Of a stretch of DNA of 64,000 nucleotides, positions 18,296 to 63,700 are shown in pieces (position 1 is the stretch's first letter; each line of letters opens with the position of its first letter). This DNA is from Kiritimatiellia bacterium. GTDB taxonomy: Bacteria; Verrucomicrobiota; Kiritimatiellia; RFP12; DVOR01. The stretch lies in contig JAFYWN010000015.1 in the NCBI GenBank assembly GCA_017558005.1, positions 1-64,000 of the forward strand, read 5' to 3'. Both the position numbers and the translations under genes were made by a program. The notes under the pieces were generated by a model, which made no database searches, was not told the origin of the DNA, and saw nothing but the letters and a program-made list of their open reading frames with translations.

Positions 18296-18420
18296 AAACC
18301 CATTGGGTTTCAAAATCAAATCCATTGGGTTTTAAAATCAAATCCATTGGATTTCAAAGTCAAATCCATTGGATTCCAAAGTCAAATCCATTGGATTCCA
18401 AAGTCAAACCCATTGGGTTT
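18296..18420. repeat. Tandem array of six 15-bp palindromes at 22-bp spacing
   Basis: Six units start at 18296, 18318, 18340, 18362, 18384 and 18406, exactly 22 bp apart. Each is a 7+1+7 palindrome: AAACCCATTGGGTTT (first and last), AAATCCATTGGATTT (third), AAATCCATTGGGTTT (second, one T/G mismatch) and AAATCCATTGGATTC (fourth and fifth, one terminal mismatch). Spacers are 7 bp, CAAAATC, TAAAATC or CAAAGTC. Paired C/T and G/A changes keep the symmetry. The geometry matches the array at 60445-60525. Confidence 0.95.
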
Positions 18421-40846: not shown

Positions 40847-41266
40847 TGCCGCAGGGGTGTGGGGGCGGCGTCGCCCCCACGTCATCCCATCATCCCATCT
40901 ATCCCTTTTCTCCTTTTTATCCCTTCAAAATCTCTTCAAAATCTCTTACGCAGGTTTGTCACTTTTGGGGAATTTTTAGCGTTTTTTCGCCTGTTGAAAA
41001 CTTTTTTGAGCTATCAACAAGTTATCAACAATGCGCGTTTTTCAACGCAGTTTTTGGAAAATTTTTCGTTTGATTGGCACGTTTGAGGGCAGAAAGCGCG
41101 AGGCGGTTAAAAATGCATAACATCTTTAGGGAGAAAGAGATAATATAAAAATGGGGTGAAATCAACTCCGCTACAGCGGCTTCGTTGCGAAAAAATGGGC
41201 CCGAGGGAGAGGAAAAGTTATCAACAATTTTTCCATTTTTGAGGGAGGTTTGCAGAAATTTTGGGT

Positions 41267-41358
41267 CAATATCAGCGAAATTGGGTTGCAATACTAGCGA
41301 AATTGATCTGCAATATTAGCGAAATTGCGACTCAATTTTGCCCATTTTCAGAGCCAAT
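41267..41358. repeat. 22-bp-period array of CAAT...ATTG dyads
   Basis: CAAT occurs at 41267, 41289, 41311, 41333 and 41355, each 22 bp apart. The first three units form 17-bp dyads CAAT-N9-ATTG with the shared core AGCGAAATTG (41274, 41296, 41318); the last two keep only the left half. The symmetry is weaker than in the arrays at 18296 and 60445, but the period is the same. Confidence 0.8.
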
Positions 41359-41596
41359 TTTAGCCCCTTTTTTGTCATATTTCGTCTTTTTCTAAAATGA
41401 CGATTTGACTAACCCTCTCCTTTTTGCTACACTGTAGGTGTGCGTAGAGTTTGTTGTTTTATTCTTTAATTTTACCACATTTTCGTGAAGAAATCCATGC
41501 GTATATGTTCACCTACGGGGCACAGCCCCGAAGGCGCGGGGTAATCTGGCGCATTATCTGCTTGCGAAATTTGGACTGCTATGATAGTCTTTGAGT

Positions 41597-56465: not shown

Positions 56466-57846
56466 TTGGAGCTTTAGCCTTTGCCTATCTCCCTCTTGTC
56501 TATCTCCTCCCGCCCATGGCCAGAGCTCCCTCCCCCAGGACTCTCTCCCTCTCCAGACCTTCGCCTAGCCCTTGAGATTCTCCACCTCTCCTTTTCTATT
56601 TACTTCCCGAGAAGAGGTATGCTATGATGCCAATATGGAGCATTCGTCACATCTTCCCTTACAGCGCGTTCGAAGTGTTCGCTTAGTAACCGCCCACACA
56701 CATGACTTATGGGGGACTGGGCGTTATTTTGCGACGATGGTCACTACTAATCGAACTCCCCTCCTTTCAACCGTCGTCTCTGGCGGTTACACCCAATGGA
56801 CCGCTATCGGAAAGCAGATTCATGCATCACTTGAACAATTGTGCAGTACCTATCCTTTGGCGATTGATCGTATCGCATTGATGCCAGACCACCTTCACCT
56901 TTGCTTTCGCGTAACATCCCCCTTATCCAAGAGCATCTTGCGCATTTTGGTCGATTGGCGTGAGGAGATAGCGCAAGCCACCGGCTTCTCAAAAGACAAA
57001 CCCTTGTGGGAGACCCCCTATCACCTCTTTACGCCATTTAATCGCGAAGTCTACACGCGCTGCATTCACTACACTGCTGCAAACCCCAGGCGTTGGTGGC
57101 ATTTACGGAATCACCCCAACCTCCTCCAAGCCCAAATCGCGACCCATCCTCTTCTCTCCCCAGAACATACTTGGCAAGCGGTGGGACATCTCGCACTCTT
57201 GGATGCGCCACTGATGATGGCGATTCGAATCCATCGTGTCGATACAGCGGAGAAAATTGCCTCCCTAACCGAACGTGCCATCCAAATCTCCCAAGCCGGC
57301 GGTGTCATCATCGGTGGCTTCATTTCCCCCGCAGAAAAAGCGCTCCTCAAAACACTCTACGCCGCAGTACCCGACCTACGACTAATTTCACTCTTACCCC
57401 ACACCCTCGCAGACTACAAGCCGCCCGCGCGTGTGCTTGATGCCTTCTACCAAGGTCGCCGACTACTTCTCACCACTGCACCAGACCATCCCTCAACTGC
57501 GCCATGTACACGCACCATCTGCCTCCGTCACAATGACCTCGCAGAGCAAATCGCGCACCATGCACAAGGGAAAGACATAAAGTGATAAGACGTGGACAGG
57601 GAAAAGTAGAGAAAAGATAGGCTCGGAAATTTGGGAAAAGATAGGCAAAGGTTCGGGGAGAGATAGGCAAAGGCTAAAGCCCCAAATAGACAAAATAAAG
57701 ATAGGCAAGTCCCCACTCCACGACTCCCCACCATCTTCCATCCACTTCCTCCCAGACCCTCTCCCACCTCCTCCCTCCACGCCCGCCTTTAAAGCTCCCT
57801 TTCTCGCCCATCGCCAGCGCTCCCACCCCCAGACCTTCGCCCAGCC
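56466..57846. repeat. Inverted and direct repeats flanking the HUH/Y1 gene
   Basis: GCTTTAGCCTTTGCCTATCTC (bases 56471-56491) recurs as its exact reverse complement at 57660-57680; TTGG beside it is matched by CCAA, with one mismatch. Direct repeats also flank the gene: a 28-bp block (56511-56538 vs 57805-57832, 25 identities) and CCAGACCTTCGCCxAGCC (56553-56570 vs 57829-57846). GATAGGC occurs at 57616, 57640, 57662 and 57700. Confidence 0.85.
56635..57585 (+). CDS. Y1/HUH transposase-like protein with an extra C-terminal domain
   Basis: 316 residues. The N-terminal 165 form a Y1 transposase (IS200/REP-associated) domain with the HUH motif in LMPDHLHLCF (His86, His88) and a Tyr/Asn-Pro block REVYTRCIHYTAANPRR whose Tyr140 or Tyr146 is the probable nucleophile. 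The C-terminal 130 or so residues (SLTERAIQISQAGGVIIGGFISPAEKALLKTL, LRLISLLPHTL, QGRRLLLTTAP) look like a Rossmann-type fold similar to DprA/SLOG domains; this is my reading of pattern only. I start at 56635, with TATGAT (56623-56628) six bases upstream and no ribosome binding site, so the mRNA is probably leaderless. No terminal repeats or accessory TnpB are adjacent. Confidence 0.75.
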   Translation: MEHSSHLPLQRVRSVRLVTAHTHDLWGTGRYFATMVTTNRTPLLSTVVSGGYTQWTAIGKQIHASLEQLCSTYPLAIDRIALMPDHLHLCFRVTSPLSKSILRILVDWREEIAQATGFSKDKPLWETPYHLFTPFNREVYTRCIHYTAANPRRWWHLRNHPNLLQAQIATHPLLSPEHTWQAVGHLALLDAPLMMAIRIHRVDTAEKIASLTERAIQISQAGGVIIGGFISPAEKALLKTLYAAVPDLRLISLLPHTLADYKPPARVLDAFYQGRRLLLTTAPDHPSTAPCTRTICLRHNDLAEQIAHHAQGKDIK

Positions 57847-57915: not shown

Positions 57916-60210
57916 ATGAAAACACGCACACTTCTCCCTTTGTTCGCTGCATTAGCGGTGGCTCCGTTGATGGCAGATTCGTCAAAGCCTGCGCCACAAC
58001 CTTTACAACAGGTCGCTGATTCACTTCCCGTCGTCGCTCGTGTAGAAGGCGACTTTCTGCAGTTGCCGATGGTGCCTGATGCACAGGTCACCCTCTTAGG
58101 TGCAGACTATGAGCAGTTGGTCCTGCCGGATGGACGCATCCGCAAGCCACTGACTGATACGCGCGTCAAGGTGAGCTTCTCGGTGAGCCGTGATCGTGAA
58201 TCTGTAATTTCTCGCGATTACGAGGTGGTCATCCCTGGCACAGAGACGCCCCCAGCAAATGCCAATCCGCGTCCCTTTGTCTTCCCTGAACTCTTGAACT
58301 GGGTGGGTGCAGCAGGAAATTACAAGATGGGAGTCGTCGTGCGCCTCTCGGGTGCGGATTCCACGATGGCAAAGCAACTCTCTGCTGAATTGACGGACAT
58401 TTTAGGGTGTCAGGTCGTCATCGCGCAACCTGGCGAAGTGGCAGATGTCACCTTCTCGCTCTGCAACGACGCACGTTTGGGCGACGAAGGCTACACAATG
58501 GCAATCTCGGCAAACGAAGGTGTCAAAATCGCCGCGACTACACAGACGGGGCTCTTCTGGGGTACGCGTTCGCTACTGCAGATGCTTGCCACTGGGAAGG
58601 GCGTGCTTCCCTGCGGTAAGGCCTTAGATATCCCACGTTACCAAGTGCGTGGCTACCTCTTAGATGTGGGCCGCTTACCGATTCCGATGTCTTACCTTTA
58701 CGACACGGTTAAGTACATGGCGTGGTTTAAGATGAATGACTTGCACATTCACTTGAATGACAACTTCATCTTCCTTGAAGACTATGTCAAAGCAGGCCGC
58801 GACCCCCTGAAGGAAGCTTACTCTGCATTCCGTCTGGAATCTAATGTCGTGGGTGAAAACGGCCAACGCCTCACCGCGGATGACCTCTCTTACACCAAGG
58901 CCGAATTCCGTGACTTCATTGCCTTCGCCAAGGCATATGGTGTGAAGATTATCCCTGAATTTGACACCCCCGCGCATGCTTTGGCCTTTACAAAGGTGCG
59001 CCCAGACTTGATTTACAAGAGCCACAACCTGCGCGCCGCAGAGATGTTGGATGCGACAAACCCTGCCACGCGCGACTTTGTGGAAGGCGTCTTCAATGAA
59101 TACCTCCTGCCACAAAACGGCGCACCCGCAGTCTTCGAAGGATGCGATGTGATGCACGTGGGCGCGGACGAATTCCATGGCAATGCCGAACACTACCGCT
59201 CCTATGCAGCATGGATTCTGGACATGGTCAAACAGAAGGGTTACACCCCGCGCATTTGGGGTAGCCTCAATGAAAAGAAGGGCAAGACCCCAATCTCTGG
59301 CAAGGGTGCACAGATGAACCTCTGGAATGGTTCTTGGGCAAAGGCATGGGATTCTATCAATCAAGGCTTTGACGTGATTAATACCACCGATGGCGCCCTC
59401 TACATCGTGCCCTTCGCCAATTACTATCGTATGGACTGGAACCAACCCAACATCTACACCTACTGGCGCGTGAATGAAATCGCAGGTCAGATTGTTCCCT
59501 CGGGTCACCCGCAGATGCTTGGCGGTGCCTTTGGTATTTGGAATGACATGATTGACCAACGCTACGTCGGCTACTGCGCCTATGACATTTGGAATATGTT
59601 CACCACCTCCGTGGACATTCTCGCAGGCAAGTTCTGGGGCGCCGATGTACCGGACGTCAATTACGATGCACACCGCGCACGTCTCTCCTCCATCGCCGCC
59701 ATTCCTGGACTCAATCCTGGCTTCCTCTGGGAAAACAACGCCACCTACGTCTGCACACCGGGCGCATTGCCCTGCAAGATTGGCCAACCCTCCATGGGCC
59801 CCAACTACACCCTGACGATGGAAGTCAAACTTGAGGCCGAACCCACCCCCGGTCAGGAGCAAGTCTTACTCAAGTCCGCCGAGGGCGTCTTCTGCGCCGC
59901 ACTCAAGGATGGCACCATCGGCTTCCGCCGCAGTGACAGCATGGAATTCTCCTTCAACTGCAAGTTGCCCGTGGGTAAAGTGGTGACGTTGCAACTGATC
60001 GGCGAACCTGGTAGCACCCGCCTCCTCGTGGATGGGCAACCCGCAGGTCAGTGCACCCTCACCCGCTTCCATCGTAATGCGGAAGGTATCATCAATACCT
60101 TCGTCTTACCATTGGATGAAGTCGGCACCTCCTTCAAGGGCAAGGTTTACCGTTTGGAAGCAAAGCACACCACACCAGCAGGTCCCACCCGAGACCCGAA
60201 CCGAAAGTAA
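57916..60210 (+). CDS. Secreted beta-N-acetylhexosaminidase (GH20)
   Basis: 764 residues. Signal peptide MKTRTLLPLFAALAVAPLMA, a leading beta domain, a GH20b domain (YKMGVVVRLSGADSTMAKQLSAEL..., GLFWGTRSLLQML) and the TIM-barrel catalytic domain with RGYLLDVGRLPIP and the catalytic Asp418-Glu419 pair in HVGADEFHG (usually HxGGDE). A C-terminal lectin/laminin-like jellyroll follows (YTLTMEVKLEAEPTPG to RLLVDGQPAG). It removes terminal GlcNAc or GalNAc by a substrate-assisted mechanism. With the sialidase it fits stepwise trimming of mucin or N-glycans. Confidence 0.93.
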   Translation: MKTRTLLPLFAALAVAPLMADSSKPAPQPLQQVADSLPVVARVEGDFLQLPMVPDAQVTLLGADYEQLVLPDGRIRKPLTDTRVKVSFSVSRDRESVISRDYEVVIPGTETPPANANPRPFVFPELLNWVGAAGNYKMGVVVRLSGADSTMAKQLSAELTDILGCQVVIAQPGEVADVTFSLCNDARLGDEGYTMAISANEGVKIAATTQTGLFWGTRSLLQMLATGKGVLPCGKALDIPRYQVRGYLLDVGRLPIPMSYLYDTVKYMAWFKMNDLHIHLNDNFIFLEDYVKAGRDPLKEAYSAFRLESNVVGENGQRLTADDLSYTKAEFRDFIAFAKAYGVKIIPEFDTPAHALAFTKVRPDLIYKSHNLRAAEMLDATNPATRDFVEGVFNEYLLPQNGAPAVFEGCDVMHVGADEFHGNAEHYRSYAAWILDMVKQKGYTPRIWGSLNEKKGKTPISGKGAQMNLWNGSWAKAWDSINQGFDVINTTDGALYIVPFANYYRMDWNQPNIYTYWRVNEIAGQIVPSGHPQMLGGAFGIWNDMIDQRYVGYCAYDIWNMFTTSVDILAGKFWGADVPDVNYDAHRARLSSIAAIPGLNPGFLWENNATYVCTPGALPCKIGQPSMGPNYTLTMEVKLEAEPTPGQEQVLLKSAEGVFCAALKDGTIGFRRSDSMEFSFNCKLPVGKVVTLQLIGEPGSTRLLVDGQPAGQCTLTRFHRNAEGIINTFVLPLDEVGTSFKGKVYRLEAKHTTPAGPTRDPNRK

Positions 60211-60230
60211 GCCAAAAGCTCACACCGTTC

Positions 60231-60262
60231 AACAGCCACGCCCTCCGCGTGGCTGTTTTTTT
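60231..60262 (+). terminator. GH20 gene terminator
   Basis: AACAGCCACG (60231-60240) pairs perfectly with CGTGGCTGTT (60248-60257), loop CCCTCCG, followed by a T-run. Confidence 0.92.
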
Positions 60263-60444
60263 ATCCTATTAATAAAATAAACCCTTCTACATCCTCCCAT
60301 GCGAACATTCCACACCTATTGGCTATTCAAAATTCATCCCTCGCCCCAAATCGTCACCTTCTCACTCGCAAAACGCTTACTTTCCCCTCACTTTGAGGAG
60401 ATTGTGGCAGAAGTTTGATAAGAAAAAGGGCGAAATCGGATTTG

Positions 60445-60525
60445 AGTTTGTTACAAACTAAAGTCGAGTTTGTTACAAACTGAAACTGAGTTTGTTACAA
60501 ACTGAACTCAAGTTTCTAAGAAACT
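60445..60525. repeat. Tandem array of four 15-bp palindromes at 22-bp spacing
   Basis: AGTTTGTTACAAACT at 60445, 60467 and 60489 and AGTTTCTAAGAAACT at 60511, each exactly 22 bp apart. All four are perfect 7+1+7 palindromes; the fourth differs by a compensated G/C swap and an inverted centre base. Spacers are AAAGTCG, GAAACTG and GAACTCA. The array ends 92 bp before the -35 of the next gene. Same geometry as 18296-18420, unrelated arm sequence. Confidence 0.97.
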
Positions 60526-60617
60526 AATCGCTTATTTCGCGCATCCTCTCCCTCAATCCCGTTTCCCCCGCCCACTTACTTTTTCAATCAACAACATTTT
60601 AATACCCCTCTTTTTTA

Positions 60618-60646
60618 TTGACGTGTTCAAAAATAGGCGCTATACT
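60618..60646 (+). promoter_or_regulatory. Promoter of the TPR protein gene
   Basis: -35 TTGACG (60618-60623), 17-bp spacer, -10 TATACT (60641-60646): one of the best sigma70-type promoters in the window. The leader is about 60 bases long, with AAAGGA before the ATG at 60715. Confidence 0.85.
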
Positions 60647-60714
60647 TATCTGTGTAATGGAAGAAAGGCCACAGGTGAGGTGTGCCCTACTCTCTTAACG
60701 TGAAAGGAACGGAT

Positions 60715-63700
60715 ATGAATTTTGTCCGGAAAAGCCGGTTGAAAGCAGTTGCGCTGCCGTTGAGTGCGGCAGCAGTACTGTTGATGCCCGCAATGACATT
60801 GGCCGATGCTGCGGCAGCAGCTGTTGATCCCGCGCTTGAGATGGAAATCAAGTACATTGATAAGCTTTCGACGCAGGGTTATGTTGACTTCGCTGATGAA
60901 GTGATTGAAGCGGCGAAAAAGAAGTGGCCCGCAGCAAAGGGCGTCTTGGATACTGCTACGGTGCGTGCAGAATTGGCCGCAGGTAAGCAGGATGCCGTGC
61001 TCGCAAAGATTAAAGCACGCCCTGACCAAGATAGCTTAGACACTTGGTTGCAGAAATTGGAATTGGCCGCAAGCTACTACGCATACTCCAAGTACAACGA
61101 AGCGGACAAGCTCTATTCGGAATTCTTTAAGAAGTTCACGAAGGTGCCGGATGCTACGAAGAATGCGTACGTCAATGCGGCCTTCTACTACATTACGATG
61201 CTGAATAAGATTGACCGCGCCAAAGACACGCTGCCAATCTATAAGCTCGCAATGGAGCAGGCCCCAACGGATGCGCAACAGAAAGACCTTCGTGCCCAGT
61301 ATTTGCGTACGCTCTTGACGGTGGCTGAAACAGCACCCGCCGGCAAAGAACGCGATGACATGATTAAGCAGGCAGAAGACATCGCCAATAAGATGGTCTG
61401 GGTGCAGGATAGCTTCTTCGGCGACGCCATCAACGGTTTGGCCTATGCCAAGATGTTGCGAGGCGACGTGAAGGGCGCTCAGGAGCTTATTGACGAATAT
61501 CTTGAACTCTTGATGTCAATTCATCAATCCTATTTGGAAGAAGACCCCGACGGCTCTAAGGGTTATCTGCGTGCAAGCCCGCTTCCCCAGTGCCGTTACC
61601 TCATCGGCAAAATGCTCTATGATCAGGCCAAGGCCGAAATCGCTAAGGGCGGTAGTGCCAACGATGACACCATCAAGAACCTCCTTCTCGGCGAACGCGA
61701 CAAGACAACTAAGAAGCGTAATGGTCAAGGCGCCTTCCAGCATTTGGTCAACGTCTACACCAACTACCCTGAAAGCCAGTCCGCGTCGCTCGCAGGTGAC
61801 TTCGCTGAAGAAATCCAGAAGTTGATTAAGACGCGCTACAATGCCGACCTGAAGGTCAACGTCTCTCCCGAGCAGAAGGCTAAGGTGCGCCAGCAGCAGT
61901 ATGTGCAGGCAAACGTGGCCTTTGACGGTGGCGACTGGGACAACGCAGTTGCGGCTTTCACCAAGACCATCTCGCAATATGGCTTGAACCAGGAAGCACT
62001 TCCCGCCATCCGTAAGATGATTGAAGCCAGCATTCGCGTTGGTAACAAGGGCGGCCAGCTCGATCCTTACTACAAACTGCAGGCAGAAACCCTTACTGCG
62101 GCCCTCGCAGAAGGTTTCTCTGGCATGAAGGAAATGGAGCGCGCCGCAGGCGATCAGCTCCGTCAAATCGCAGATCTCTATGGTGAAATGGGCTTGAACA
62201 CGTTGAAGGATGCGACCTACGCACACTTCTTCAAGTACTATCCCAAGCACCCCGCCGCCGTTTCGATGCAAAAAACCATCGCAGAAGAAAAGGCTAAGGC
62301 GGGCGACGCTGAAGGCGCTGAAAAGCTCTACATCGCCATCCGCGATGCCGCAACCACTGATGACCAACGTGATGCGCGCACGGCTGCGCTCGACGCACTC
62401 GTCAACCTCTACAGCCCGAATGGTGCGGCTGCAAACGTTACGAAGGAATTGGCCGCAGCACAGGCTTTCGCCGAACATTTTGATGGCATCGCACGCCCTG
62501 GCGTAAACGCCGCTGCTGCGCAGTTCAAACTCGCCGATGCCTATCGTCATGTCGGTGAAGACCTTCGCAAGGCGGTGAAGGACACCTCAAATGACAAGAA
62601 GATTGCGGCGAACTACGCAAAGGCAGCTCAGATTTATGATGCCTTAGCGAAGGAACTTGAAAAGACTGACTCTAAGTACGTCACGGCTTCGACCGAACGT
62701 AAGACCGCAGACAAATTGCTTGAAGGCGCTCTCTATCAACGCGGTATCTGCGTCCAGCGCTTACCTTTTGGTGGCGATGTGAAGAAGGAAACCGCTGCCA
62801 AGAAGAAGGCAAAGACCTACTTTGAGGATTACTTGAAGAAATTCCCCAAGGGTCTCTATGCCTCGAAAACAATGTTGCAGATTGGTACCATCCAGGCCGC
62901 TACTGGCGATATTGAAGGTTCGCGTGCGACCTTGGCCAAACTCGCCAAGGACTTCCCGCAATCTGAAGAAGCAAAGAACTCCATCCCGATGCTCGCAGAC
63001 TCCCTCTTCAAGATGGGTATGAAGGGCGAAGCAACCAACACCTACAAGCAGATGTTTGCAGCTGGCGGCTCCTACACCGCAGCGCAGTATCAGGCTGCAG
63101 CGGAAAAGCTCTTGGATGCTGGCGATGCAAAGCTCGCAATTGAAGCGTGCGATTGCATCCTCAAGGGAAATAACAAGGCATACAAGCCGAAGGCAATGTT
63201 GCTCCGCACCAAGGGCTTGCTCGCAGACAACCAGTCTGAAGCGGCTTACAAGCAAATCTCTGAGCTCTTGGATGCCTATGGCAATACCACCGTGGCCGTG
63301 GATGCCAACCATGCATTACTCGAAGTCATCGGCGCACAGGTCTTAAATGCCAATACTTTCGAAGAACGCAATGAGCTCATTGGTAAGGCCAAGAAGGCTG
63401 TGACCTTCCTCGCCTCTCAAGCTACGCGTAATGCAGGTGACAACCCCGCCGCCGCAGATGCTGAAACGGTTCGCCTCAATCTCGCCGTCGCCGATGTGGC
63501 TCGTAAGGCCTATGAAGCAGAAAAGAAGGCGAATAGCGACCGCGTCATCACGGCAATCGGTTCTGCGCTCAATGCCTACCGTACGGCAATGTTCGCAGGT
63601 GCGACCCCCGTCACCGAACCGCTCGTGTCGCCCAATGTCCAGAAGGCATACAAGGGCTATATTGAGTTGACCCGTGAACGTGCCGATATGACCACAGATG

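Follow-up and report, generated by a model that had tools for sequence, protein, structure and literature searches.

A palindrome array in a Spyradenecus genome belongs to a class of sequence-unrelated dyad repeats with a common period of 22–23 bp

Results

The array at 60445–60525 and its surroundings

The window (the whole stretch of 64,000 nucleotides that was analyzed) belongs to a Kiritimatiellae genome of the genus Spyradenecus, with an assembly of 2.05 Mb in 37 contigs, labelled C1–C37, the window contig being C15. The region of interest extends from a GH20 hexosaminidase gene, followed on its 3′ side by a terminator-like intrinsic stem (60231–60257, + strand), to a TPR gene, the protein of which has matches that include Candidatus Spyradenecus faecavium and Kiritimatiellae MAGs. 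The TPR gene is preceded by a promoter-like sequence, TTGACG-17-TATACT (60618–60646, + strand), that is kept in congeners devoid of the array. Between both sites lie four perfect 15-bp palindromes of the 7+1+7 form, with no strand assigned: three copies of AGTTTGTTACAAACT (60445–60459, 60467–60481 and 60489–60503) and the compensated variant AGTTTCTAAGAAACT (60511–60525). Their sequence and coordinates are exactly those of the original prediction, with a 7/7 dyad in each of the four units and every step equal to 22 bp. Dinucleotide shuffles predict 0.01 occurrences of the degenerate form RGTTTNTNANAAACY in the window; there are four.

The array is longer than first described, as two caps placed in the 22-bp register bracket the four units. 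The left cap, AAAAAGGGCGAAATC (60423–60437, + strand), is one register step ahead of the first unit, and the right one (60533–60547, − strand) is a degenerate form, TATTTCGCG / TATTTCGCGCATCCT, of what is elsewhere RATTTCGCCCTTTTT, i.e. the left cap inverted. The promoter-like site at 60618 is 92 bp downstream of the array, as had been claimed; it is not the strongest of the window, being one of nine sites that match at least 10 of 12 hexamer positions, with one site scoring 11. The idea that all the dyads face the same side of the helix holds approximately, as 22 bp amounts to 11.0 bp per turn and some congener arrays run at 23 bp. Single-strand folding was far better than that of shuffled sequences (z = −5.5 and −4.75, with DNA parameters); this is expected of any palindrome array and does not decide between the readings considered below.

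Family A across the genome

Arrays were counted from pattern searches together with 464 kb of sequence of this genome, made up of the window and 20 stretches selected by location. The block at 60445 belongs to a short, modular, non-coding repeat, here family A, which is present in eight copies made of 1–7 units and usually capped. The copies are located at C1:31095, C5:377, C9:35094, C13:186, C15:60445, C20:65689, C35:19970 and C37:59996; a ninth, short fragment is found at C37:60441. The 22-bp unit consists of the 15-bp palindrome and a semi-conserved 7-bp spacer; the units, symmetric in themselves, are arranged head to tail, all their steps are exactly 22 bp, and copy number varies by whole units. 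Inner units are homogeneous and end units divergent. Inverted caps (AAAAAGGGCGAAAT / ATTTCGCCCTTTTT) bracket most of the arrays: the left cap is in register at C1, C9, C15 and C37 (both arrays), degenerate at C5 and C35, and absent from C13 and C20, while the right cap, RATTTCGCCC, is in register 3′ of most arrays. The caps stay in register whatever the number of units, from 1 to 7. Such terminal inverted repeats, together with copies dispersed over eight loci, are marks by which MITEs and foldback elements are recognized.

Nearly all the array copies examined, including those of the families N and C described below, were intergenic (8 A, 6 N and about 38 C loci). With gene calls made by a simple open-frame heuristic, the A arrays displayed no common orientation or distance to genes. 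No regulator gene was recognized by eye beside them, they contain no DnaA boxes, and no mobilizing enzyme was found for the family. The exact A tandem was absent from 94 relatives and, searched as an exact pattern, from genome_contigs (from which the present genome was possibly excluded) and viral_contigs.

Compensated changes and conservation of symmetry

The compensated G/C swap of the fourth unit is real. Among 30 A units, the pair formed by positions 6 and 10 is G-C in 24 and C-G in four, and the C-G form is always found in the last complete unit of its array (C1, C13, C15 and C37). Since all four cases occupy this same place, they may share a single origin. In family N, the pair 4/12 is complementary in 22 of 29 units (C-G in eight, T-A in 14) and mismatched in seven, against some 15 pairing units expected by a hand estimate from column frequencies, with units that are not independent. 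Over distinct unit types, the excess of pairing was weak in A, where it was reached by 238 of 5000 shuffles, and absent in N. So, of the test for compensated changes it can be said that the swaps stand, whereas the events are few, the units are not independent and the signal over distinct unit types is weak or absent; therefore, the case made here is not rested on it. What did hold is that symmetry is kept while the sequence changes, that the phasing is strict, and that the layout recurs, in A, N and C and in other palindromes of congeners.

Other families with the same period

The window holds one array of each of three dyad-unit families, A, N and C, which are unrelated in sequence and have a common period of 22 bp. 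Its family N array (18296–18420, no strand assigned), which came to light when dyads spaced by 22 bp were searched for, is formed by six AAAYCCATTGGRTTY units of the 7+1+7 form in 22-bp steps. A pattern search for this family (AAAYCCAWTGGRTTT) yielded six loci, on C1, C10, C14, C15 (twice) and C36, all with a 22-bp period, and no control matches. The N array at C1:49023 adjoins genes that look phage-like by eye, and that of C10, within L222 (C10:19000–26000), is located about 130 bp past the dnaA stop.

The distances between dyads in the sampled DNA of this genome peaked at 22 and 44 bp, with shuffles giving about zero. Lag 22 also stood out among direct repeats, with counts of 43 in G000 (most other lags below 15) and 21 in the congener G004; these counts come from loci picked for holding repeats, and represent enriched samples rather than genome averages. 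In congeners, other palindromes are arrayed in a similar way: AACGAGGGCCTCGTT at 22 bp in G004, within a leader that resembles the family C leader, AATATGGTACCATTTT at about 23 bp in G010, and TTCATACYRGTATGAA at 23 bp in G014. The 22–23-bp period was found in at least five families of unrelated sequence, and the recurrence of arrays in this genome and its relatives came out in favor of the original prediction. Family A belongs to a class of arrays, limited to the genus, whose members have dyad and period in common, but not sequence.

Family C elements and DnaA boxes

Family C (CAATATCAGCGAAATTG, an imperfect dyad) was found at roughly 38 loci by our own count of pattern matches, and at several in G004, with zero control matches. 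The element of the window (41010–41450; further examples are L040, L099, L100 and L104) contains a 22-bp array of CAATATCAGCGAAATTG-type units (41267–41328, + strand), GTTATCAACA-type boxes (41011–41030 and 41217) and a near-consensus promoter, TTGACTAACCCTCTCCTTTTTGCTACACT, from about 41405. When 20 copies were lined up, 19 had a promoter match with TTGAC-type and TACACT-type hexamers, and L109 had TTGCCT. The distance from array to promoter is nearly constant, and in L100, with one unit more, the promoter offset goes from 142 to 165, i.e. 23 bp further. A fixed promoter position was found for family C only, and not for A. The genes located 3′ of these elements, as read by eye, include those for LepA, DnaB, EF-P and release factor 1.

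Boxes of the GTTATCAACA sequence are part of the family C elements, and two of these boxes lie 11 bp apart. Tandem boxes of this kind (TTATCAACA) are also found in the dnaA-mnmG intergenic region (L222), which is probably oriC, and the GTTATCAACA boxes were read as DnaA boxes on this ground. In 400 kb of other DNA of the same genome, 18 of 19 boxes belonged to sets in the context of a C element, and 43 tandem box pairs were counted genome-wide. Family C elements are possible DnaA-linked promoter modules. The A caps resemble C units: when the left flanks of A arrays were compared to the C leader, only 0–2 of 1000 shuffles reached the score, the match being mainly the cap itself.

Element B

A 282-bp repeat, element B, gave 13 matches that correspond to 10–11 copies, two of them identical including their flanks. 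A B copy with the same flanks is found at C33:21238 and C2:137332 (L225 and L226), perhaps an assembly duplicate. At most copies B abuts an array, and it joins it at nearly one position within the unit, whatever the array sequence: in a hand count, precise to within a few bases because of T or A runs, junctions fell at positions 10–13 from the unit start, and at 11 in five of the ten; the units joined were of the A, N, N-like and cap kinds. Contig C35 contains an uninterrupted, empty-site relative of C5, where a B-NUDIX-B segment is inserted in the right cap; the NUDIX-like gene, read by eye, lies between two B copies in a cassette-like arrangement (L025, 500–1750). No open frame of its own was recognized in B, and an open frame resembling a transposase fragment, beside B on C33, had no Pfam hit.

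Discussion

Comparison with known systems

The operators of phage lambda (OR/OL) and the ArgR boxes are palindromic sites of 15–18 bp with centers about 21–24 bp apart, which serve few defined operons and are bound by a known protein. The arrays described here share with them 15-bp dyads in 22-bp steps, about two helical turns, but they occur at many loci, with no recognized regulator gene and, in family A, with no fixed link to a promoter. The BOX element of Streptococcus pneumoniae is a dispersed repeat built of modules of about 45–60 bp, with end modules that enclose a central module of variable copy number. By size and description, A arrays resemble BOX elements (PMC3049150) in having end modules (the caps) around a variable number of middle units (1–7); the difference is that what varies in number is here a palindrome unit of 22 bp, and that each end is an inverted copy of the other. 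Plasmid iterons (R6K, RK2, P1) have a spacing of about 22 bp, a likeness extended in family C by DnaA boxes and a promoter. An iteron origin combines its iterons with DnaA boxes, an AT-rich region and a rep gene, and the iterons themselves are direct repeats, for the most part without palindromic symmetry (PMC4980987). However, no rep gene was seen here, A is devoid of DnaA boxes, and family C precedes ordinary genes.

REP, BIME and REPIN sequences are short palindromic intergenic units, dispersed and often grouped in regularly spaced composite arrays; REP units are usually of 21–65 nt, often in more than 100 copies, and are tied to RAYT (PMC2817692, PMC3116915). The present repeats are also short dispersed extragenic palindromes, but they are 15-bp 7+1+7 units in strict 22-bp direct tandem, with several unrelated units per genome and no linked RAYT; the alternating orientation of asymmetric REPs was not seen, A and N units being symmetric and head to tail. 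Insertion sequences are known to target REPs at one position (PMC1525189), and B similarly joins arrays at nearly one position within the palindrome; it differs in its 282-bp size, in having no recognized open frame of its own and in joining units unrelated in sequence. Dispersed palindromes, modular repeats and phased operators are each known already; the literature searched gave no description of the three combined.

Interpretation of the arrays

If the block at 60445 were an operator that acts in cis on the TPR gene only, dimers of a repressor or activator bound to its four sites would control the promoter at 60618. The position of the array, past the upstream terminator and ahead of the promoter, is suitable for this, and the TPR upstream regions of G004 (L055) and G002 (L066) also hold 22-bp arrays of other sequence; these are, however, C-type arrays in the opposite orientation, pointing away from the gene. 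In the comparison, which also included L054, L057, L062, L064 and L065, the TTGAC-type promoter persisted without an array in G005 (L062), G006 (L065), G008 (L057) and G009 (L064). In addition, the same array is present at seven other unrelated loci, and those read had no promoter at a matching distance. A special link to the TPR promoter is thus not supported, and a private operator, rejected as the main reading, is improbable. Slightly more doubtful still are transcribed RNA hairpins, with stems of about 6 bp and 7-nt linkers, in an untranslated region or a small RNA. A stem and a short loop can be drawn for each unit, and the whole block folds much better than shuffles, as judged with DNA parameters; but the 60445 copy, lying between the terminator-like and the promoter-like sites, probably sits in DNA that is not transcribed, so that pairing between transcribed units, as once proposed, is unlikely there. 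Moreover, no Rfam match was found within 59000–62000, which discards known RNA families in that interval, the wobble-type changes of A favor no consistent strand, and an RNA hairpin has no need of a strict 22-bp register. It is very improbable that the arrays are the REP sequences of a RAYT (Y1 transposase), one gene of which is 2.9 kb upstream (56572–57585). Y1_Tnp-like genes exist at three places of the genome (the one just mentioned, C14:84313 and C27:10090), and REPs are palindromic and dispersed (PMC2817692). Nevertheless, the RAYT-like genes of the window and of C14 are flanked by motifs of their own (GATAGATAAG plus a hairpin; AGATAGGCAAAGG) and not by the A palindrome, on which account this identity was rejected; no A units were seen beside the gene of C27, and G014 has a palindrome array with no Y1_Tnp hit. 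A CRISPR array was discarded by its geometry, with repeats of about 23–50 bp and unique spacers of similar length, versus 15-bp repeats and semi-conserved 7-bp spacers here. A phage origin was discarded after scans of viral contigs for the exact A, N and C patterns gave nothing.

The best reading, which we hold tentatively and at somewhat under an even chance, is that the arrays are phased dyad sites for a putative dimeric DNA-binding protein, spread as modular non-coding repeats. Each dyad would be the site of one dimer, with neighboring dimers placed side by side at a distance of about two helical turns; units may be gained or lost by slippage or unequal exchange, the arrays may travel within mobile elements that are non-coding, and a switch of the unit sequence could go along with a switch of its binder while symmetry and phasing are kept. 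The strongest point in favor is the convergence of unrelated dyad sequences on 22–23 bp. This is accompanied by the exact 22-bp steps of the eight A loci, with caps in register, the period of the six N loci, the roughly 38 C loci with no control matches, the peaks of dyad pairs and direct-repeat lags, the further palindromes of G004, G010 and G014, the promoter distance of family C with its shift in L100, the pairing at N positions 4/12, and the probably untranscribed location of the 60445 copy. Dyads, phasing and recurrence fit the dimer first proposed; no binder was found. A close rival, possible although clearly short of even, is a selfish foldback or REP/BOX-like element, i.e. mobile or recombinogenic DNA that forms hairpins and has no binder of its own, and whose period and symmetry would go back to a single ancestral array and be maintained through slippage and gene conversion. 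It would explain the dispersal of copies with no gene-related pattern, the inverted caps, the single-strand folding, the homogeneous inner and divergent end units, and the way in which B joins A, N and cap units, with C35 as the empty-site relative of C5. It is at odds with the convergence of at least five families on 22–23 bp, with the promoter distance kept by family C, and with the failure to find a mobilizing enzyme for A. Binding by a dimer has in turn its own difficulties: no regulator was recognized by eye beside the A arrays, which have neither fixed orientation nor fixed gene distance; the compensated changes are few, in units that are not independent; three families in this one genome would require three specificities; and a period of 22–23 bp departs from whole multiples of 10.5 bp. 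The strongest objection to it is that no binder is known and the families may descend from one ancestral array, a common descent of the period being possible because the A caps resemble C units.

A wider proposal, which we consider rather unlikely, is a genus-specific control of chromosome or transcription, in which the arrays of dyads phased at 22 bp would be read by fast-switching paralogous dimers, or by one factor sensitive to the geometry of the dyad and not to its sequence, with family C coupled to DnaA, by way of tandem DnaA boxes and a promoter, at roughly 40 sites. What deserves attention is that, within one genus, sequences with no relation to each other arrive time and again at one layout, with dyads every 22–23 bp in which the letters change but symmetry and register are kept. 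If a binder exists, the arrays offer a natural series for following joint changes of specificity in a protein and its multi-site target; if none exists, they show that foldback repeats are able to converge on one geometry. Because family C elements bring DnaA boxes together with a strong promoter, at about 40 sites and before genes such as those read by eye as lepA, efp, dnaB and RF1-type genes, a connection of DnaA with growth genes can be tested.

Additional repeats

Other repeats were observed in the course of the analysis. Hairpin-rich repeats (GCAGGACTCAGTCCTGC, GCATCCGTCAGGATGC), inverted with respect to each other, flank the L040 family C element on both sides (1–60 and 730–790 of the part of L040 that was read), and are also present in G010 (L098). 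A different kind of array, with a period of 20–26 bp, combines a constant linker (TGTGGATTACG or TGGTTRA) with a self-complementary stem that differs from unit to unit; it was seen in G010 (L098, 2514–2700; L095, 170–240) and in the present genome (L149, 7997–8055). Finally, a short CRISPR-like array of GTTCCAAGTGAACTTAAAGCCGAAAGGC... repeats is placed between the 23-bp palindrome array and dnaA in G010 (L097, 12226–12400).
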